A DNA stretch of 64,000 bases, from positions 186,001 to 250,000 of the forward strand of contig JAQMWT010000398.1 in the NCBI GenBank assembly GCA_029834535.1, given 5' to 3'. This DNA is from Chrysophaeum taylorii (taxonomy: Eukaryota > Sar > Pelagophyceae > Pelagomonadales > Pelagomonadaceae). This document shows positions 31,764 through 44,078 of this stretch, one piece after another; the first letter of the stretch is position 1, and every line of letters starts with the position of its first letter. The notes beneath the pieces were generated by a model, which saw only the letters and a list, made by a program, of their open reading frames with translations, searched no databases and was not told where the DNA came from. Made by a program: the position numbers and the translations under genes.

Positions 31764-32598
31764 TGCAGAGCATTTAGCATGCAGTGGTAAGTCACCTGGG
31801 AACCATCCCGTCTCATCATGAACGTCTGGAAGGCGGGGAATGAAAGGTATGTTCCCTATATCCTCAGAACACGACAGGCGGCATCTAGAACTACACGAGA
31901 AAGATTAAGTGTATAGTGCTACACAAAACGTGAGGGTAGGAATGCCGGTCCTGGTGTGAGCGAGTGCCCGGGGCTACATATACTTCCCCATCATAGTGAA
32001 ACGTGAACATCTGGGGCGAGTCAAGCATGTATGCGAGACGGTGGGGACCCAGCAGACGACGACGCCATCTGCTTAAGATGAACATTGGGCCCTCTAAGCG
32101 CTCGAGGTGGTTCGCGCGTTCGAATCCGCGCCACCGCTGCTCCGCAAGGAGTGTGTGAGTGTCTTCGAAGCAGCTCCCGTCGCCAACTGCTGGAGCCCCA
32201 TCGTCTAGCACACACACTAGACCCCCCCTCATCTGGGCGCTCTCACTTACTAGGACCGGATGTTCATCTCCGACGCAGATGTTCATCTTAAGCAGATGGC
32301 GTCGTCGTCTGCTGGGTCCCCACCGTCTCGCATACATGCTTGACTCGCCCCAGATGTTCACGTTTCACTATGATGGGGAAGCACAGGGGTATATATAGCC
32401 CCGGGCACTTGCACACACCAGGACCGGCATTCCCTCCCTCACCTTTTGCTACATACCTCGGGACGCGCTAGACCATGATGATGAGCTTGAGCACAAATCA
32501 GAGGACTAATCGACTGTGTAGAAAGGAAGAAGAAGGGTAAGGAAGAGATCACATTCTCAACGGACGGATAAGGGTAAGAGGCAGCAGATTTCTCTGCA
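31764..32598 (-). repeat. 3' LTR of the copia element (carries a MITE insertion)
   Basis: About 305 bp of LTR plus the 525-bp foldback element and its 5-bp duplication. It shares both ends with the 5' LTR and keeps an intact version of the site into which the SINE-like copy went in the other LTR. Confidence 0.9.
31924..32448. mobile_element. Foldback MITE (525 bp) inserted in the 3' LTR
   Basis: Inverted repeats of about 160 bp, nearly identical, start CAAAACGTGAGGG at the left and CAAAAGGTGAGGG at the right. Flanked by a 5-bp duplication CTACA (31919-31923 and 32449-32453). The empty site, GTGCTACATACC, survives in the 5' LTR near 43928. No coding capacity; the 200-bp centre includes shorter, older copies of the terminal sequence. 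The 5-bp target duplication and termini do not let me name a superfamily. Confidence 0.9.
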
Positions 32599-32608
32599 CC
32601 CCCTCGAG
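32599..32608 (-). other. Polypurine tract of the copia element
   Basis: CTCGAGGGGG in element sense, directly upstream of the 3' LTR, where plus-strand priming is expected. Confidence 0.6.
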
Positions 32609-32740
32609 ATGTCTTAAGCGCAAGGTGCGACTATAGAACATCTCTTGAGAAAGATGATGATGAAGGAAAGAAAAAGGAGTATACAGTCTTGATGGTCGCA
32701 GAGGTCACATACGAAGCATCAAGAGTATAGAAGGAGTGTC

Positions 32741-33454
32741 TTAAGGCTTGGACTTGGTGGAGGAGCTGAGGGTAGATTTGATGCTTTTGACCAGAACGTT
32801 GCGAAACACAGGTACAACAGACAGTGTGTTAGGGTTATCTGAGGTGGTGGACATCGTTACTGGTTCGAGAGTGTTGGTATCGTCGTCGTCAGCTTCTGCT
32901 GTAAGGTGGTGAACACCAATAGCTGAATGGTGTGGTACCATGCGGAATGTGAGTGCAAGTAAAGCATTCAGTATGGATGGCACCAGCGAGTCGAGTTGTA
33001 GGGTGTCCAGTTGGTTTTCCAAGAAGTTGGACTCGGCGAACGGATCCGTGAAGATAGAAGAGTCTTCCGATTCACACGAAAGCGGAATGCTCTGAATACA
33101 TGAGAGTAAATTGTCACGCAGATGAAGGAGGTGATCGTCCGGGGAAGAGTAGTTGACGGCATGTTGTTCGAGGGCGGTAAGTGTTAAGCGAGACAACAGC
33201 TCTGTGATCTTGTACAGTGTTATAAGTAACACATGTGCGTTGGCTGCAGGAGGAAAGAGCCGGCTCTCCAGGGAGGTGATTGAAGCAATAGCAGCCTGTA
33301 GATCTGTGCGTAGAGATAGATTCTCAGCACTGAGAACGTTGACCTTGCGAATGTGTTTTCGAAGAGCTTCCTTGAGTTGTTCGACTTGGAGACGCAAGGC
33401 ATCGAAATCATCAAGCGAAGCAGAAGGCGTAGGATGTGACGATGGCGAGGACAT
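32741..33454 (-). mobile_element. Extra open frame B (coiled coil) before the 3' LTR
   Basis: A frame of 237 codons with a strong heptad pattern near the start (LRLQVEQLKEALRKHIRKVN, then LSAENLSLRTDLQAAI). Ser/Asp/Thr-rich C-terminus. Family not recognised; its position is where some LTR elements carry additional genes. Confidence 0.5.
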
Positions 33455-33971
33455 CTCCAGAGTAGGGTCTGATGTGGAGAGTGAGTGAGTAGTTTAACGA
33501 CGTTTCGGTCAACACATGCTGTGTAAGTGAGGCTGTGTAAGTGAGGGGTATTTCGCGTTTAAAAAGCGCAGAAAGTCTTGATGTTCTGCCTGAGTATAAG
33601 TGGGGCCGAACATTACATCCAGGAGTGACGGCGGTTTTGTATCATCTGAAGATGATGATACGTAGTCGTCAAGATGTTGTACCCACGATTGAGCAACAGT
33701 AGTAACCACATGCTGGAATTTGGATGGCTTGAACATAGCCTGAGCTTTGCGACTCTGTTTTCGAACAAGAGTCACAAGGAAATTAAGATGCTCAAGGTGC
33801 ATCTGTGTTATAAGCCGAAGATCCAGTGCGAATGGCAATGGTGTGGAATCTCTGTGGCTAAGGCGGATACGGATACCGTTACAAGTGACGGTGTTGAGCT
33901 AGCATATTTGTCACCCATGGCACCCATGGCCATGATGGCGCGGCGCGCGTATATGACCAGCTGAGCGCGCA

Positions 33972-34703
33972 TCACAAGGGAATTGATAGAGTATCATTGC
34001 GAGCACATACGGTAGGTTGCGTAGGCACCTGATCAGTATTTTGACACGCGAAGCACAAACCCATAGTAATAGCAGAGATGGGGATGTGACCATTCTTCTT
34101 ATGGTCGTCCATGTTGAGGTGACTCAACACCTTGGTAGGTAGTTCACGAGGCGTTTGCGCCTTGGAACTGTACGTGGTAGAGTCGAGGAAAGTCGGTTGT
34201 CCAAGATCATTGAGGCATTGCGTACAAAAGGACGACAAAATGAAACGTTCGCGTTTGGGACCTCTATAGCAGCCATAGAAGCAATAGCAGGCAGCTTCCC
34301 AAGGATAGTAATGGGTAAGCGCATGGATATGAATGCACCAGTTCCACAATAATAAGTCAGTAGACTCGTAAACGGAATGTAGGGCAGTCATGAGTTCCAC
34401 TCGCATAAAAGAAGAGAGAAATGGGGTGACAGGGACACGGGATTTCTCAAGGAGAGAGATTCCTCGTTCGTGCACAGCATAGTCCATGCTGAGGCCGTCC
34501 TGGAACGTTAGCGACTGAGGTGAGATATGTCCGGCTGGTGTCGGTGCAACCGCAGCAGCCTGTGGGGTAGCAGTAGCAGCAGTCATGGTTTGTCGCTTTT
34601 GCGACAACCTGGGAGAAGGTTCGGCCGTGGAGAGCGAGCGTGGGACTGTCCTTCGAACGACTGGGGAGAAGCCGCGGCCACGGGAGTGCCAAGAAAAGGA
34701 CAT
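33972..34703 (-). mobile_element. Extra open frame A downstream of RNase H
   Basis: A frame of about 240 codons between RNase H and the 3' LTR, beyond the end of a standard copia polyprotein. Pro/Ala/Thr-rich start, then Cys/His-containing stretches (CYCFYGCYRG, CFACQNTDQ). Family not recognised. Confidence 0.45.
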
Positions 34704-35024
34704 AGGCGACACTCACACGCACACAAAAATTTGTGGCAAAAGAAGGTAGGGCGGCTAGTTTAACGACGTTGCGGTCACTGGGGTTAGGCATCTTCAATCC
34801 TGTAGAGACTTGTCATCAGAGGCATGATGCATACCGAGTAGAGAACGAAAAGTGGAGAACTCAGCGCAGTGGCTTTGAAACCATCAGCCACGTTTAGCTT
34901 GCCGAACACATGGACTCGAATTTTCTGTAGCGACTACTCACGGATCTTAAACCATCTGGTCGACAGTGCCTTGGAGCGAGAGGATCCATCTGGGTTATTA
35001 GGCGTGTGAACAGCAGCAGCATTG

Positions 35025-35273
35025 TCAGACAAAGAGGGCGTTTCTGATGAAGCGCATATCTTCAGCAATTGGGTTGTCATTGTCATCGAAGTCAACAGGA
35101 TCAGCGGTGTTCTCACCATTAACATTGTTGACGTAGAAGGTGGGGTTGACGACAAAGGAGAGTTCCAACAGCAGCTTGCGTAGCCAAACAGCTTCATCAG
35201 CACAAATACTGAGGGCAATCAACTCAGCTTCGTGAGTTGAGCAGGAGACATCGGTTGAAGCTTGCTTTTCCAA
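35025..35273 (-). mobile_element. RNase H region of the copia element
   Basis: KQASTDVSCSTHEAELIALS followed by ADEAVWLRKLLLEL matches the copia RNase H end (KQ..V..SS.EAEY.A......E..WLR.LL). Confidence 0.85.
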
Positions 35274-35894
35274 CCATAAGGCAGTTGAAAGATAGAAGAC
35301 AAACCCGGTGGCATTTCCTATCTTCCTGTGCTAAGGAAGGGGCATTGTCAGCGTCGACCATGGCAACTAAGGGATCAAACTGTCCAGTGGACATCCTGCG
35401 GTTGGTAGTCAACCACAGTAGAGAGATCAATCGATTAGCGGAGACAGTGCGAAGGTGAGCTTCAATAGCATTACCTTTAGGATGAAACCAGAGGCGAAGT
35501 GCGGTTTTCCGGCTTCCTCAGGTAGCGGAACAGGTGTTCTAGCATCTGACATGAACGTACGTGGGTGCATGCATACCACGCGAACATCTGCCCAAGGCTT
35601 GCGAGAAGTCAGGTCTGCAGGCCACTTGCATGAACACCAGCTTGCCAAGGAGGGTGGCAAAGTGCAGTTGATGTACACTCTGTTTCAGAGCTGGGAGTGC
35701 CATCTTATATGAAGACGAGGACAAGGATATTTAAGCGGAGTTAGTTGCTGCAAGACAGGATGATCAGCGAAGAGTTCATCAAGCTTGGCTTGCACATCCA
35801 GAGAATGGATCCATCAGATGAGCGACACACGCATGCCAGTAGGGACGGTTCAAACTGCTCTACAGCATACCGTTTGTGGAGGGCATCCTGTAAC

Positions 35895-36576
35895 TCAGTA
35901 CGAAGAGTCATCATTGGACACAATAACAATGTCTTCTTCAGACAGACTGCATACGACGAACTTAGCATGTGCGGATACTCGAGCATATAGGCAAGAGTCC
36001 GAATGCAGGCGCTTGTAGCCAAGGCTACGGAAGAAGCCGTCTATCCTTTGTTCCAAAGAGATGGCGATTGCCGAAGTCCATAAAGTGACTTCAGCAGTTT
36101 CGGCGCGTCGGCCCTTGTACTTAGCGTCATCGGGGTCGATAAGCTTGATGCCGTCTGGTAACTGAACATAGACGTTGGCATCAATGTCAGACTGAACGAA
36201 GGCGTTCGGGACGTCTGCGTGGTAGACAGGCAATTGCTTGTATGCTGCAATCGCCAGTAGTACCCGGATTGCGGTCATTGTGGCCATTGGGCTGAAGGTG
36301 CCAAAGAAATCGGCGCCAAGGGATGCTAGGAAGCCACGTAGCACGAGGCGAGTTTCAACGTATTTGCCTGCAGAGTCCGTTTTAATCTTCAGCACCATCC
36401 TGCTGTCAATAGGCGAGAGACACCGTCGGGTAATGAAAGAAGCAGCCAAAGCGGATAATGTCGGTGTTCCTTGGCGATGGCCTTGAGGGCGTGCTGTCTT
36501 CAGGCGACATACCGTGGAGGCACTTGAGTTTGTATTCATCGATGGAAACGTCCGCTTCTTGGACTTGTATATTCAT
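35895..36576 (-). mobile_element. Reverse transcriptase region of the copia element
   Basis: VETRLVLRGFLASLGADFFG, TFSPMATMTAIRVLLAIAA and YHADVPNAFVQSDIDANVYV are textbook Ty1/copia RT blocks (normally KARLVARGF..., TFSPV..., DV..AFL.G.L). This is the firmest family marker of the element. Confidence 0.9.
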
Positions 36577-37539
36577 CAGGACCAACAGGCTGGTGAACTA
36601 TAGTTTAACGACGTTGCGGTCGAGCGCGACTTCGGGATAAGCGGAAACAGCGTCAGTAGGAAGGGTAGAGGAAGCAGATTCCAGTTGAATATGGATAGTA
36701 GGGTCGGCATGTAAGACCTGCGTGATATACTCTGTAGAGACCAGAAGTATTCCTCCAAGTCAGACAGAGATGCAGAATTAGCGCCAAACTCGGAAGAGTT
36801 GTGATCGATAAAGCTGGTCGGCGCCAGATAAGTGCAGACTGCAATGATGAGATGCCAAAGGCAGCAGCGTGCTCAGTGAACGCAGCTAAAAGAGGCTGGG
36901 AAATGAGCAAGTCAGTGCGCAACGGGAGAAGAAGACGAGCTAACAACGCATGTTCCCCCTCTGAGCAGATAGCAGACCAGAGGATACCACCATTGATATG
37001 TAGGGCGGAGAGGGCGGGCGACTTGAACGTAAGAAAGTGGTGGCGAAGATCCCAGCGGAAATCGGCGAGTTTGCCACCAGCGGCTTTGTAAGCACCAATA
37101 GTAGACGCTTGCAGCCGGGCTTGGATATTTTTCATGGAGGTTGCCTTGCGGTTGTTAGGTTGTTTGGAACCTGGGACAAGAATGAGGTCATCTTGTGCAA
37201 AAGTCTTTGTAAGAGGCAAGCAAGGGCGGCGGTGGCATAGAGCCAGAATCGTCGACGGGGGCGTCGGAAGGAGGAGGAGAAGGAGGAGCAGGGGACGAAG
37301 AAGAAGCAGAGGGAGGTGGGGAGCGCCCCTCTGAGGATGAGGTGTCCGTGCCCCCTCTGAATGAAATGGTCTTGGATAGCAGCGTGCGGTGTGAGTGAGA
37401 AAGGTGCGGGAGGAGCGTGAGGCGGAGGAGCAAGTTCAGGATCAGGAGTAGGATGCTGGAGCATGTAGAGAATTGCAGCTTGGACGAAACACGATTTGTC
37501 CGTTTTCAGGGTTGAGGACGACGTCGGCAATATGGTCAC

Positions 37540-38400
37540 ACGTGGGGAGACGAGCGGGTTTTGCGCGTTGGCGCAACATAGATATATTTCGGCGGCACGG
37601 TTCCCACGTGGTGCTCGTGGGGTTCCAATAGAAGGTAGCATTCAGCGCCGAAGATCTTGAGCATGTCATGCTGGGGAGTGCTCAGTTGATTGTAGAGTAG
37701 CTGTTGCGGACTCAGGATAGCATGGTGAATGCGCTCGAGCGTGGCGTTCGGAAGAAGGTTGTAGCTTTGGATGGTGTGTATCACCGCCCAGGGAAACATG
37801 ATGGCTGGTTCCACGATCTTGGAGCCACGATAATGAGCATTAAGGAGAGAGCGAAGGCGAGTTGAGGAGGCGGAGGCGATGAAGCCGATGGCTGACTCAA
37901 CTTCAAAGTTAAAGTGGTGCATGTACGGCAAGCGATGAGCTGAATGCCCTTATCGACGCGGTACGGGGAGGTGCTGTGGCTAAAATAGGCTTGAAGGCAT
38001 CGGAGTAGAGGGTGCGCAGGTGCACGTTGAGTTGTGTACGACAAAAGTCATACACAAAGTCCAGAGCTTGAGTGAACTCCGTGGCGTTGGTGGTGCGTAA
38101 AGTACACCAAGAGAAACTTCGAGATAAGTTCTTGAAACAATGATATGAGTGAAGCCTCCCATTCTGACGGAATTGTCACATAGCCGCCGTCGCACGCCCA
38201 GACTTCGCCGGCTTTGTGAGTTTGCTCAAAAGAGGGCTTGGTCGGATTGAAGTGCTTGTGCGGGTGGCGCTTGTTGTGCGCGATGCAGTCGGTGCATAAG
38301 TCGCGATACGGTAGGTCTGAGGCAGAGAAGCCAGGGCGAGCCAGTACGTTGGGGGCCTTGGCTGCAACGTTGTCGGGGCAGTGGTGCACCCAGGGAAGCG
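37540..38400 (-). mobile_element. Integrase region of the copia element
   Basis: CTDCIAHNKRHPHKHF resembles the zinc-finger/pre-integrase end, followed by VWACDGGYVTIPS with an Asp at the expected first catalytic position, and PQHDMLKIFGAECYLLLEPH typical of the copia integrase C-terminal part. Confidence 0.7.
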
Positions 38401-39049
38401 ATTGGCACGTTCTTTGGCGTTGAGATATTCAGCAGATCCGTGCGAGGGATTTGCGAGGAATGGGATGAGCGGGGATATGACGCGCGCCGAACATCGAACT
38501 TGAGTTCGGTGTCCAAGGCAGGAGGAGGCGGTGCGTCGTCATCCTGGTGCGCAGCAGGGTCACTTGGAGGTGCATCCTCATCATCACGAGTAGAGTATCT
38601 TCGTAGGACGAAGATATAGTTTAACGACATTTCGGTCAGCAGTTAAGCGCCGCTTGTGCCAAAGACAAGGTATCTGTGCTGCCGTGGTGGAGGCCGGATC
38701 AAAGGTCATGAAGGTGGATACAGGATTTCTTCATCACGGCAGCAGCATGTTGGAAGGTAGGGTCCAACATGGGATTTATATCGGCAACGAGGAGCGAGAG
38801 GTGCTTGTACAGTGTGCTGTACGTACCGGCAGGCAGAGCATTGCTGAGCATGTCGCAGCCGTCGTGGCGAAGAGACAAGAGGGAAGATTCCTGTTGTTTG
38901 GTGTGGTTGTTAGCACGAATCAACTCCGGTCGAGTAGGATAGCGTAGTTTCCCGTTGCGAGGGTCGAGTAAGATAATGTTTGCATACCCTCGGACGGTGG
39001 GCAATGGAGCAAGCATGGAGTGGATTTTAGAGCCGAGTTTGCGGTCACT

Positions 39050-40198
39050 TCCACGAATATACCCTACATAGCGAATATGGGATGTGATTCCAGAGCATGA
39101 GAAACCTTGTAGTCGAAAAATTGTCGGTGGCCTTGTAGGTAAGGCAGCCAGCCACACCAAGCATCTGGACGCAAGATTTTGTATGGCGGTGCCATAGGCG
39201 GCAGCGGAGCCAACTTGAGAGGGCTTGGATTATCCACAGTAACCCATAAACGGCTCCAAATATATAGATCTGTCTCTGTCGCGGGGGACGTTGGAGGCAG
39301 TAAACGATACATAAGTACACTCGGATTGAACAGAGTGCGTGCGTTGCTCGTGAGCCTGTTGTGAGTGAAGGCGAAGAAATAATAAATTAAGTGTTTCAAG
39401 GTCAGTCATAGTAAGCTGAACAGAACCTGTGCGAGAGTAAGGTGCAACGGGGACATATGGAGGATCGGGGAACACCCGGATCCAATCTTTGGCGATGTGT
39501 TTGGGTAGCCAAAGTCGCTTAGGAATGGCTTGTATGTCATCCACGATCTTCAAGAAGGGGCGGGGGTGGTGGATAGGCCACGAAAGCATGTTGATTGGTC
39601 CAGTAGAATACCTGCGTGCGATGCAGATCCATCTTTCCCTAGATTGGTAGTCGCCACATAGGTAGGTCGGGAACCTGTCAACAACATCAACACAGTAATC
39701 GAGTGTGGCATGGATGAGGTTGGCCACAGTTATGTGGTCTTGATGACAGTACTTGTGGGGTGGTGTCATCTCAGCCAGTAGTACCAAGGGTTGGAGAAGT
39801 TTGATGACAGACAGCATGCTGTCGAACAGAGAGTCGTCGAGCAGGCTGTGTAAGTCTTCGGTCTTATGCTGCTTTAGTAGATTCCTGTTAGTGCAAGGAG
39901 GGGTTATCTCAATAATATCGCAATAAAATTTGCGCCTTTCCTCTGGTGAGATTTGGTGAAGATGGTTAATAAAGGCGGGTAAAGATTCAAATAAGAATGC
40001 TGTAGGAAAACGGTGGCGTAACATGCGCACAAGCGCATCATCAGACTCAACAACAACTTTTACATTGATATTTAAGCCTGGTTTATTTGTGGCTTGAGAC
40101 AGGAACGCTGGGGTTAACAAACCAGAACAAGGTAACATGACAGAGAGTGTGCGAGGATTGGGCTCTTGTGAGAGGAACACTGGGCGAGAAGCATTCAT
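39050..40198 (-). mobile_element. C5-cytosine DNA methyltransferase-like region of the copia element
   Basis: Motifs occur in the order of the C5-MTase fold: motif I-like CSGLLTPAFLSQ; motif II VVVESDDALVRMLRHRFP; motif IV PPC in IIEITPPCTNRN; motif VI Glu in LLQPLVLLAEMTPP; motif VIII QSRERWICIARR. Spacings are right for the catalytic half. The region sits between protease and integrase. Cytosine methyltransferases captured by retrotransposons have been described, as I recall, in dinoflagellates and charophyte algae; I do not know of a stramenopile case. I treat this copy as a fossil. Confidence 0.7.
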
Positions 40199-40539
40199 GT
40201 TAATGGCGGAGTGTTTTGCTGGACGAACTTGTTCTGTTTCCGAAGATTAAGAACCAAAGGGCGAATCCACGGGCGATCTGGTAAAACTCTCTTGAGGAGA
40301 TAGTTATAATATGCCAGTAGATCCCTGTTTTCGTGGTATCGCTTGAGCGGAAATGCGAGGGAGCGCAGTTCGAGTTGCTTGTCGCGAGCGATGTTGTAGG
40401 TGAGACAAGGGAGAGCAGGCAAGTTAGATGTTGCGCAATGTATGGGAATACGCACATCTTTGTCTATGCGGCTCGTGACAGCGCTGAGCTTTGGCTCAGA
40501 TCGATCACTGAACACAGTGGTCAAGTTCGTCTGGTTCCA

Positions 40540-40830
40540 CTCGAGCATGCTCAATATAGCGAGATGTCGGTTGTGCACTGGCTGAAGACATAAAGCGAAG
40601 TCAATCTTCACGTAACCGATTTGTGGATGATCTGGTAGTGGGACAACTATATTACGTGTTAACATCATATGTGAGGCACGTTGTTGTCCAGTGGCAGTTT
40701 GTATAATAATCGGCGCGTATTTGGGATCCAGTGGAATAATATGATTTGGAATCGCATAGTCGTAGCTGGACATTAACGATATGGTAGCACAAGAGTCAAA
40801 ATATAAAAAGGAACAATGTTGGGGAACACT
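40540..40830 (-). mobile_element. Protease region of the copia element
   Basis: Inside a 600-codon frame (41997-40195). The stretch FLYFDSCATISLMSS has the position and shape of the retroviral-type aspartic protease active site (DSGAT-like), followed by IIIQTATGQQ and further beta-strand-like segments. Confidence 0.6.
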
Positions 40831-42410
40831 GTTTACCTTCATATATTTCGCTAGAAGTGCATTTTCCGAATGCGGGCAAGTAGTGGAGAGACTTGCAGTG
40901 AAGAAGTTCTCCAGAAATAACAGGTTAGTTGGAATGATAATCGGTTGAACAGGTGGTGATGGTTCGTCAGCCTCATCAGCCATGCCGTACTTCTCATCAA
41001 ATGATGATAGCGAGGTCTTATCGACATCCCTTGTGGTTTCGGCTTGTTGTGGTTGGTTAATGGCTGATTGGACCTGTGAAGATAGCGAAGACAGTAACGC
41101 TGGTGGTAGCGTCGAGATGGCGGAAGCAGTAAAGAAGTTAGGCACAATATCAGAGGGGTTACCCTGTGTGTTGGAGGCATTCTTGGTATCTGTAGTAGGA
41201 GTTGCCTTTGGGGTGGGAGCAGTAGCAACAGTATGATGTTGTGGCTCCACGTAGTTTAACGACTTTTCGGTCGAGGATAGATGAACGTCTACATCATAAA
41301 TGATGTCTTCTGCGAACATGAGCTGTTCGTTAAGACGAAGTAAGTCACCATTGTCCTCAGTAGATGTGGTTGATAGAATATCGGCGGATTGCAACAGAGT
41401 CTCAAATAACTTGGTGATGTTCTGTTGTAGCTCAGCCGTGATATCATTATCTGTCACATGCTTCGTAAGTTCACTACACTGCTCTTGCATTGTATTTATG
41501 GTGTGCTTCGTTCGGTCCAATAATTTCATATTAGATCGAGAGGACCTGTCGAAAGTGCGAGGGTAAATTGGACGGTCATGGGATTGTCCAGCATTTTTCT
41601 TGGTGACATAAGAATCACCAGAACGATAATACGATAAGTCGCTGCGAGAGAAAGGCTGGCGTGCATCGTTAGAGTTACGCAAGCGTCTAGCGTTAAACGT
41701 GGAGGATGTTCCAGGTTGAGAAGAAGTAATGGACGCAAGTGCGTTTGCAGTTTGAGTCAGACTTTTGTCTGATAGATCCAGCGTGTTTGTCAGTAGTAAT
41801 TTCGGCTTTGGTTGTGGTGTTAATCCTTCAACGTGAGGTTGCCAAGAAATAGGGCGTTCTAAGCGTCTTTTGTTCGACCCATTCGATACTACATTATATA
41901 AGTCTAATGCGTATTCTAAGATATAGCTAGGGTTGGCAGGGTGACACAATCGTCCAGCGTCTGGCACAGGCCGAGATGAAGATCGAGTTTCATACATATA
42001 ACACCAGTCTACCCAACCACGATCGTAACGATTGTTGCTGGTATTATCGGCATAATGCCGATGTATCTCTTCATAAATTTTCTACAAAGAGTACCAAAGT
42101 CGAATTGAAGGTCAGTCTCTTCCTGGTTAAGTTGGTAAGAGATTTGCCTAAATGCCAGGACAGCTTCAATAAAGACATGGACATAGCAGTTAGGATTGTA
42201 AACAACAGAGTTAAACTGCTGTTTCATTTAGGACACATCAGTTGTCGTAACAGACTCGTAGTGACCAAAGGCAATGAGCATAATGGCGCGAGCCTTGTTG
42301 GGTAAATAACTTTTGTTATACACCTCATTGATGGCGGGCCAGGCCGCAGGTGCTGGTTTTCCAACACTTTCAAGATTGAAGTAAGTATGCAAGAATGTAG
42401 CATACGTGTT

Positions 42411-43052
42411 CTAATAAGTGTGCCAGTCAGCACCAGTTAACGAAAACATGGTAACAGGGGCACGAACGCGGGTGTCAAAAGCTAATGCTTTCGGGTGCGC
42501 TCGATTTAAGATTCGTTCCTCTTCTAAGAAACGAAGATTGATTTCAGGGCGTAATGCCTTGACTTTATTGTCGTAACAGACAGTAGCTAGCTGAGCTACT
42601 TCTGCGTCAGGTAAGTTGGGGAAAGCTTCATTGTCAGGGGGCAATTCATCAACAGCTAAACGGAGATCAGCAGCCCTATTGGTCCTCCATTCCAGGAAAA
42701 CGCGATCGAGAATTTGATTCCGGAGGATCTCGTAGTCCTTGCATGACCGAGTGTATGCTTCGTACGAGTCGTACTCGAGAAAGGCATTGGCATGACTGGA
42801 CCGTAATATTTGTTGGATATGCTTAATTTGCAAGGATACCTTGCGGGTCTGAAGCTGAAATCGATTTCCTTCGTTGTGAAACTCGACTACAGGAGCTTCG
42901 AGCTTCAATATGTCCGCACCTGTGGTCGCCTTGGGTGCGGCTCGTGCTGCGTGTTCTGCCATAGCAGTTGACGGGGAACCTGTAAGTTCAGTCACCCAGT
43001 TGACACTGTCTAGACATTCTAGGGGGGTTTGTCTATCGGTGTCTATGTACAC
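42411..43052 (-). mobile_element. gag-like region of the copia element
   Basis: First open frame after the primer-binding site, 213 residues, helical and charged (KHIQQILRSSHANAFLEY, RNQILDRVFLEWRTNRAADL). Assigned as gag-like from position and general composition only. Confidence 0.5.
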
Positions 43053-43470
43053 TCATGCGTTATCGATGGAAAAACGTCTATTTGACAACTGTGCAAGCTG
43101 TGAGTCCAGAGTAGTGCCGCTAAGCGTAGTCACTCATGGCAGCTGGTTATTTTGGTGCTCTCAAGGAGCTTGGTAAGTGCATTGTCATGGAATGTACGAG
43201 TGGACGTACCCAAAACATTCCATAACATGTGTGCAAGAGTACAGGTTAGCCCACTTACACACACATCAACATTAACATGACAACACGATACTATGAACAT
43301 TTGCACACAAGGTTACACTATCACGTGTGCAAGATATGCTATGTGCAGCCCAATGGTAATGGCGTTGTATAAACAAGCGTGTTTGCGTGGCGAAGCTGGA
43401 CTGGCGCGGCAACAGTCCAAAACCCATAGGCTACGTGCACGCTTTAACACATGGCTTCTCAGGGACCTGC

Positions 43471-43484
43471 CTGGGCCCATAACC
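43471..43484 (-). other. Primer-binding site complementary to the initiator tRNA-Met anticodon arm
   Basis: Element-sense GGTTATGGGCCCAG directly follows the 5' LTR. The plus strand, CTGGGCCCATAACC, equals the anticodon stem-loop of eukaryotic initiator tRNA-Met, not its 3' end. Drosophila copia and yeast Ty5 are known to prime this way with a half-tRNA. Confidence 0.8.
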
Positions 43485-44078
43485 TGCAGAGCATTTAGCA
43501 TGCAGTGGTAACTAACTAACTAACTTCAGACCTCGCCCGAGCATGGGAGCCAGGCCGGACCGACAGGAGCCAGTCCGGAATCACGGGCCTGTAGACGAGG
43601 GGCGCCGAAAGGTGGGTCGGGGGAGAGTGATCATCAAGCTTGTTGCCATGCGACGAGGAGACCGCGATGTGACTGACAACCAACTCGTCGATAACCTTCC
43701 GTCTGCGCCCCCATGCCATACCCCGTCCCACTGCGAACGTTCCGGCTGCCAACCGGCCCGCCCGAGAGGCGAATAGGTGCCAACCAGTGGTAAGTCACCT
43801 GGGAAACCATCCCGTCTCATCATGAACGTCTGGAAGGTTAATTCGGGGAATGAAAGGTATGTTCCCTATATCCTCAGAACACGACAGGCGGCATCTAGAA
43901 CTACACGAGAAAGGTTAAGTGTATAGTGCTACATACCTCGGGACGCGCTAGACCATGATGATGAGCTTGAGCACAAATCAGAGGACTAATTGACTGTGTA
44001 GAAAGGAAGAAGAAGGGTAAGGAAGAGATCACGTTCTCAACGGACGGATAAGGGTAAGAGGCAGCAGATTTCTCCACA
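43485..44078 (-). repeat. 5' LTR of the copia element (carries a SINE-like insertion)
   Basis: About 310 bp of LTR plus the SINE-like copy. In element sense it begins TGTGGAG and ends CTCTGCA, the usual TG...CA. It directly abuts the primer-binding site at 43484. Confidence 0.9.
43512..43784 (-). mobile_element. SINE-like copy inserted in the 5' LTR
   Basis: 273 bp, about 95% or more like the 18.36-kb copy over shared length but 32 bp shorter at the end away from the (GTTA)n tail. Target duplication CAGTGGTAA at 43503-43511 and 43785-43793. The empty site survives at about 31782-31790 in the 3' LTR. It therefore inserted after the retrotransposon. Confidence 0.9.

Follow-up and report, generated by a model that had tools for sequence, protein, structure and literature searches.

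The 64,000-nucleotide window analyzed here, positions 186,001 to 250,000 of contig JAQMWT010000398.1 (G000:C398:186001-250000) from the pelagophyte Chrysophaeum taylorii, whose assembled genome comprises 70.8 Mb in 697 contigs, contains on its minus strand a long terminal repeat (LTR) retrotransposon of about 11.6 kb. Its coding region carries a module that resembles a C5-cytosine methyltransferase (C5-MTase). The element is bounded by 148-nt direct repeats at 43927-44074 and 32447-32594, which are identical at 146 of 148 positions. When the LTR ends are read in this copy and in two siblings, L039 and L040, the repeat starts with TG 4 bases further out and ends in CA. The 5-bp flanks outside the two LTRs of the window copy differ, so this copy shows no target-site duplication. 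The parts, in the order in which the minus strand is read, are as follows.

43927..44078, minus strand: 5' LTR, TG...CA, from the direct repeat and the reading of its ends
42411-43052, minus strand: gag N-terminal part, an open reading frame (ORF) separated by frame breaks in the window copy; one open frame in sibling L039
40195-41997, minus strand: gag C-terminal part and aspartic-protease-like segment, an ORF with FDSCATISLM at 40771-40800
40195..40197, minus strand: TGA stop between gag/protease and the methyltransferase-like module, from the sequence
39306..40189, minus strand: C5-cytosine-methyltransferase-like module, homologous part, within the open frame 39233-40198
38631..39305, minus strand: spacer region X, from module to integrase, by reading; frames broken here, continuous in L040
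37539..38389, minus strand: probable integrase, HHCC-like finger and core, by reading; split over two frames in the window copy
35898..36539, minus strand: copia-type reverse transcriptase (RT), RVT_2
35028..35273, minus strand: RNase H fragment, by reading, STHEAELIALSICADEAVWLRKLL
33975..34712, minus strand: ORF of no assigned family, 3' of RNase H
32744..33493, minus strand: last ORF, with a coiled-coil-like stretch, which stops short of the 3' LTR
32447..32598, minus strand: 3' LTR, from the direct repeat, with a purine run before it

The window copy is a broken member of a large Ty1/copia-type LTR retrotransposon family. The RT matches RVT_2 with an E value of 1.3e-21 (77.8 bits, cut-off 31.6), in agreement with an earlier note, made from the sequence alone, that had called the element a copia; in L040 the same match reaches 7.7e-42. 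The D-S-C-A-T signature and its position make the segment after gag a candidate protease; Pfam returned no match for it, for the RNase H fragment, or for region X (L040 part). In L040, integrase is represented by rve (E 0.0076) and SH3_retrovirus (E 0.00056), both under the curated cut-off, and the rve-like part at 784-866 lies ahead of RVT_2 at 1431-1651; integrase is thus probably upstream of RT in pol. The module, X, integrase, and RT form a single open frame of 1691 aa in L040, and in L039 a gag/protease frame of 960 aa is followed by a single TGA and then, in the same reading frame, by 1154 aa that start with the module. The order protease-module-integrase that the earlier note described is supported, extended to gag/protease, C5-MTase-like module, integrase, and RT.

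Ty1/copia elements are ordered protease, integrase, RT, and RNase H. Like these Pseudoviridae, the window element has a candidate protease, then a probable integrase, then RT (RVT_2) and RNase H, and short LTRs. Beyond that plan, it has the methyltransferase-like module and region X between protease and integrase, a conserved TGA in front of the module, two further ORFs downstream of RNase H, and a length of about 11.6 kb. Extra genes downstream of RNase H occur in some LTR elements; Pfam matches to the ORF at 32744..33493 were only sub-cut-off, to coiled-coil families. As side observations on this copy, the LTR cores are 98.6% identical (32447-44078) despite many coding frame breaks and no visible target-site duplication, for which recombination or an assembly error may be responsible. 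The G+C content is 0.45-0.53 in the six 2-kb bins of 32001-44000 versus 0.55-0.73 in the other bins of the window.

The module lies in an open frame of 322 aa at 39233-40198 (minus strand). Its homologous part, at 39306-40189, spans about 295 residues, and the alignment with siblings covers residues 4 to about 298. The earlier note had assigned 39050-40198 to the module; the stretch 39233-40198 is indeed its frame, whereas 39050-39232 lies outside it, where siblings continue in one frame and the window copy is shifted. C5-MTases carry their motifs in the order I, II, IV, VI, and VIII. The same five, which the earlier note had read, are found in this order on the minus strand within 39306-40189. 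In the numbering of the open frame, they are a motif I-like C24-S-G-L27, a motif II-like E51, P101-C102 of motif IV (Cys codon 39895-39893), A142-E143-M144 of motif VI, and Q185-S-R187-E-R189-W of motif VIII. All 12 sequences of alignment A4 keep the catalytic residues, there C99, E140, and R186, and the catalytic Cys, Glu, and Arg are also invariant in the 20 chosen copies of alignment A1. Two positions beside them have changed in the window family: PPCT replaces PCQ, with loss of Gln, and AEM replaces ENV, with loss of Asn. In place of the Asn and Val of ENV, the window protein and two outside relatives, P0001 and P0002, have Met and Thr; motif VIII reads QSRER in the window and QARER in both relatives. 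Neither motif IX nor motif X was recognized by eye in the module, nor was a target-recognition domain or other DNA recognition part past motif VIII. The PF00145 matches of P0001, P0002, and family B, a second family described below, stop at or before position 194 of 324. The module is like canonical C5-MTases (M.HhaI, DNMT1, DNMT5) in motif order, catalytic Cys/Glu/Arg, and, in a low-confidence model, predicted fold; it differs from them in PCQ and ENV and in having no recognized motif IX or X or target-recognition domain.

Homology to C5-MTases was traced stepwise, through the relatives, a family profile, and a predicted model. P0001 and P0002 are 39-42% identical to the module. Against PF00145 (cut-off 22 bits), P0002 scores 23.0 bits and P0001 20.2 bits, and no other family was matched. 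In the profile check proposed in the earlier note, P0002 lies just above the cut-off, P0001 just below it, and the window protein itself gives no match. A profile of the window family (family A) scores five of five family-B C5-MTases tested at 25.9-33.4 bits, compared with 4.5 bits for the best of 2107 decoys; decoys were shuffled or reversed sequences, and the test set was five of the six family-B sequences fetched, with L008 left out. The motif resemblance is therefore more than chance at the level of this profile comparison. The module plus X of family A scores 12.1 bits against one family-B frame (best of 1001 decoys, 6.1). A profile built from the window protein, P0001, and P0002 gives four PDB matches up to E 10, of which the top two are cytosine-specific MTases with weak E values of 0.023 and 0.088.

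The predicted model of the module has low confidence, with a mean predicted local distance difference test (pLDDT) score of 42; the AlphaFold model of P0002 is poorer (mean pLDDT 38.6). When the low-confidence model was used in Foldseek, the 28 best rows were all C5-MTases, DNA MTases made up most of the 50 rows shown, and the neighbors included DNMT2. The VIA ranges with this low-confidence model extend to residue 277, versus HhaI 323.

Several results weigh against this assignment. The window protein has no match among Pfam and NCBIfam profiles, and the highest-ranking C5-MTase in its PDB search is DNMT2 (E 0.4). The family-A profile does not place two other C5-MTases of the genome, L001 and L002, above decoys, and the family-B profile scores the window at 4.0 bits versus 6.3 for the best of 1806 decoys. 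A 20-row family profile finds seven PDB matches up to E 10, with no C5-MTase among them, and P0002 alone finds no match in the PDB. An hhalign comparison of the family A and B alignments leaves the link unsupported (probability 2.2%, E 0.022). By Z, other methyltransferases nearly equal C5-MTases. Searches for further relatives were also negative within their scope. A full-length polyprotein search with residues 1-640 of L040 pol gave none at E <= 0.01 among 8000 scored candidates, those with the most words in common; the mixed profile A5, over 5008 candidates, gave nothing beyond P0001 and P0002; and none of 24 pattern-matching stretches in IMG/VR codes for a relative. Together, the relatives, the decoy comparison, and the model indicate that the module is a relative of C5-MTases.

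The search for other copies that the earlier note had called for was productive. With the window's module protein as the query, the genome yields 125 rows, which fall in at least 124 places when that of the query is counted; the others are 80-94% identical. This count is a lower bound, as 124 of 1330 first-look candidates were scored. The aligned stretch contains no stop in 92 of the 125 rows. Selection was assessed from the ratio of nonsynonymous to synonymous substitution (dN/dS), calculated pairwise by the Nei-Gojobori method for pairs with dS > 0.05 among loci L010-L040 and the window, with L012 and L039 being one place. The module has the lowest median dN/dS, 0.122 from 470 pairs of 32 rows; gag-C/protease follows with 0.166 (206 pairs of 21 rows) and region X with 0.268 (149 pairs of 18 rows). 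When the window is compared with the other copies, the module gives 0.195. These rows are the best matches to the window and are biased to intact copies; 8 of the 32 module rows contain a stop. Purifying selection acts on the module, and gag-C/protease and region X are both less constrained than it is.

The junction in front of the module is also conserved. A junction pattern that does not require TGA matched 29 of 31 loci, corresponding to 28 of 30 places, with L031 and L040 as the misses, and TGA is present at 28 of 28 readable junctions. The codon that follows is CTA in 11, ATG in 9, ATA in 5, and CTG, TTA, and ATC in 1 each. In 19 of the 28, the stop is not immediately followed by a start codon, which speaks against reinitiation at this point. 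UGA CUA is given as a consensus for high readthrough in humans in the available text of PMC4359377. The conserved TGA, this consensus, and the shared reading frame suggest programmed readthrough, which would set the dose of Gag to Gag-Pol. The copies are related, so the TGA occurrences are not independent witnesses. No RNA structure was found after the TGA when 151 nt were folded from the stop in one copy (z -0.31).

A recurrent motif may mark where the polyprotein is cut. The 11-mer TCGTTAAACTA occurs five times on the minus strand of the window, the strand scanned, and all five occurrences lie within the element.

41251..41262, minus strand: SLNY site 1, inside gag, a candidate protease site
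38616..38627, minus strand: SLNY site 2, at the end of module plus X and the start of integrase
36600..36611, minus strand: SLNY site 3, at the integrase/RT boundary
34755..34766, minus strand: SLNY-like site 4, after RNase H; SLN-stop in the window copy
33489..33500, minus strand: SLNY site 5, ahead of the last ORF

Sibling frames read T-x-x-S-L-N-Y once in gag and once between X and integrase, and the sequence at the integrase/RT boundary is seen in both sibling loci that are long enough. These sites are candidate protease sites, and cleavage at them would release the module and X together with the protease. Conservation of SLNY was not shown to exceed that of its flanks (9/30 and 18/27 segments kept). 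Codon identity at sites so far apart could reflect a signal in the peptide, a signal in the nucleotide sequence, or recent copying.

The dinucleotide content of the element was compared with that of its surroundings. CpG observed/expected is 0.91 in the element versus 1.33 in the rest of the window, and TpG is 1.32 versus 0.85. The mean CpG value is 0.95 over 30 of 31 family-A loci (L032 left out) and 1.00-1.10 in six family-B loci. The CpG deficit and TpG excess are compatible with methylated, deaminating DNA. This footprint cannot separate self-methylation from host methylation or base composition.

These observations allow a mechanism to be proposed. The pol region would open with the catalytic domain of a C5-cytosine methyltransferase, captured by the element and sited after protease and ahead of integrase. 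Gag-protease alone would be made in bulk, and Gag-Pol with the methyltransferase would be made at a low rate via readthrough of the conserved UGA, such that few copies of the module would enter each virus-like particle. There, or in the integration complex, the module may act on the element's newly made cDNA and methylate its cytosines before this cDNA integrates. The benefit could be that the cDNA is hidden from host sensing of unmarked DNA, or that new copies are kept quiet and the host tolerates the family. We infer the readthrough, the packaging, the enzymatic activity, the cDNA as substrate, and the benefit. Taken whole, with capture, UGA dosing, and self-methylation of cDNA combined, the proposal is modestly probable, and the interpretation in the earlier note, an element that captured a methyltransferase and might mark its own DNA, is partly supported.

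The genome offers further C5-MTases for comparison. Family B is a second multi-copy family, L003-L008 (G000:C4, C120, C64, C326, C683, C564), that by reading has canonical PCQ/ENV motifs, and the frames that hold its PF00145 rows are up to 1952 aa long. The family-A protease profile ranked decoys at the top when applied to family B, and the family-A integrase-finger profile scored 10.1 bits versus 9.5 for the best of 2340 decoys. At least two more are encoded: L001 (1498-2577, plus strand), of 360 aa and almost wholly covered by PF00145, and L002 (1006-3537, plus strand), a 2086-aa frame with PF00145 at E 7.9e-18 and a sub-cut-off RING match, which we take to resemble DNMT5. A tentative extension of the proposal is that a copia lineage acquired a C5-MTase once and split into the PCQ/ENV form of family B and the remodeled form of the window, the latter having lost Gln, Asn, and the C-terminal motifs, being dosed by UGA, and marking the element's nucleic acid in the particle.

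The substrate could instead be RNA. A descendant of C5-MTases that methylates the element's genomic RNA or primer tRNA, aiding packaging, stability, or priming, would fit the presence of DNMT2 among sequence and structure neighbors and the unrecognizable DNA recognition parts past motif VIII. An RNA substrate is also raised for the SymbioLINE DNA methyltransferases (DNMTs) in the available text of PMC5890265, where their yeast DNA test was inconclusive. The preponderance of DNA MTases among the 50 Foldseek rows shown and the CpG deficit of the element, which fits DNA methylation, point the other way, and we consider an RNA substrate unlikely. A catalytically dead module, retained as a structural or S-adenosylmethionine/nucleic-acid-binding part of Gag-Pol, would explain why Gln after Pro-Cys and Asn of ENV are lost and motif X is unrecognized. 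It would not be expected to keep Cys, Glu, and Arg invariant across both alignments or to be the most constrained segment, and is distinctly unlikely.

Methylation might also serve chiefly as self-restraint, in which new copies are marked for host silencing, the burden is limited, and the family persists at high copy number. The many copies in a genome of 70.8 Mb and the CpG deficit are in keeping with this idea, which is raised in the available text of PMC5890265, as are the two or more other C5-MTases, one in a 2086-aa frame; because L001 and L002 are encoded in the genome, a mark could be maintained. Nothing in the data separates restraint from hiding. Selection on a single element favors spread, so self-restraint would need selection at the level of the host, and we regard it as quite improbable. 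It is very improbable that the motifs resemble those of C5-MTases by chance and that the module is instead a different Rossmann-type methyltransferase or a pol spacer of unrelated origin: the missing direct Pfam or NCBIfam match, the weak or absent links in the 20-row-profile PDB, hhalign, and P0002 PDB searches, and the near-equal Z of other methyltransferases are outweighed by P0002 exceeding the PF00145 cut-off with no other family matched, the family-A decoy test, and the 28 best Foldseek rows.

Retrotransposon-borne DNMTs are known. The available text of PMC5890265 describes them in Symbiodinium, where LINE and DIRS elements carry them, and in Klebsormidium, where the carrier is a Gypsy element; it reports purifying selection on them and shows that SymbioDIRS DNMTs methylate CG de novo in yeast. 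The earlier note had pointed to captures in dinoflagellates and charophytes; the cases described are of LINE, DIRS, and Gypsy class, and Symbiodinium Copia elements are said in the same text to be without a DNMT. KnitGypsy-Dnmt3 of Klebsormidium nitens resembles the window family as an LTR retrotransposon whose Pol ORF contains a C5-MTase, on which purifying selection acts (Ka/Ks < 0.2). It differs in being Gypsy rather than copia, in having a Dnmt3 with conserved key residues and a DIRS-like repeat arrangement; its copies are fewer than the Symbiodinium ones (PMC5890265). SymbioDIRS-Dnmt3 and SymbioLINE-Dnmt share a retrotransposon-borne C5-MTase at very high copy number, with the SymbioDIRS DNMT in Pol together with RT, and differ in class (DIRS and LINE) and in their conserved key DNMT residues (PMC5890265). 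A single sentence in PMC12344493 lists 'LTR Copia and DIRS' as DNMT3 carriers and cites the 2018 paper; that paper, as available, describes Gypsy, LINE, and DIRS, and the available text of PMC12344493 contains no copia of this build. The methyltransferase passage available from PMC12477816 concerns a DNA transposon. No copia of this build was found in the copia-DNMT literature searched, which lay outside preprints and most subscription papers, nor in the available text of PMC5890265, PMC9998398, PMC12344493, PMC12477816, or PMC4359377. The window family has the traits of DNMT-bearing retrotransposons, namely a module in the coding region, multiple copies, and purifying selection. Relative to these sources as available, the window family differs in its copia class, in the site of the module, which follows protease and a conserved stop and precedes integrase, and in the altered motifs.

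Transposons are often silenced by cytosine methylation, and it is therefore puzzling that one so abundant should retain a methyltransferase-like module of its own under purifying selection. To LINE, DIRS, and Gypsy, a copia element built in this way, with a conserved stop and then the module ahead of integrase, would add a class. With the module within a particle-forming polyprotein, the hypothesis that its target is the cDNA of the element itself, prior to integration, becomes testable. The family also shows which parts of a C5-MTase active site can change while selection persists.
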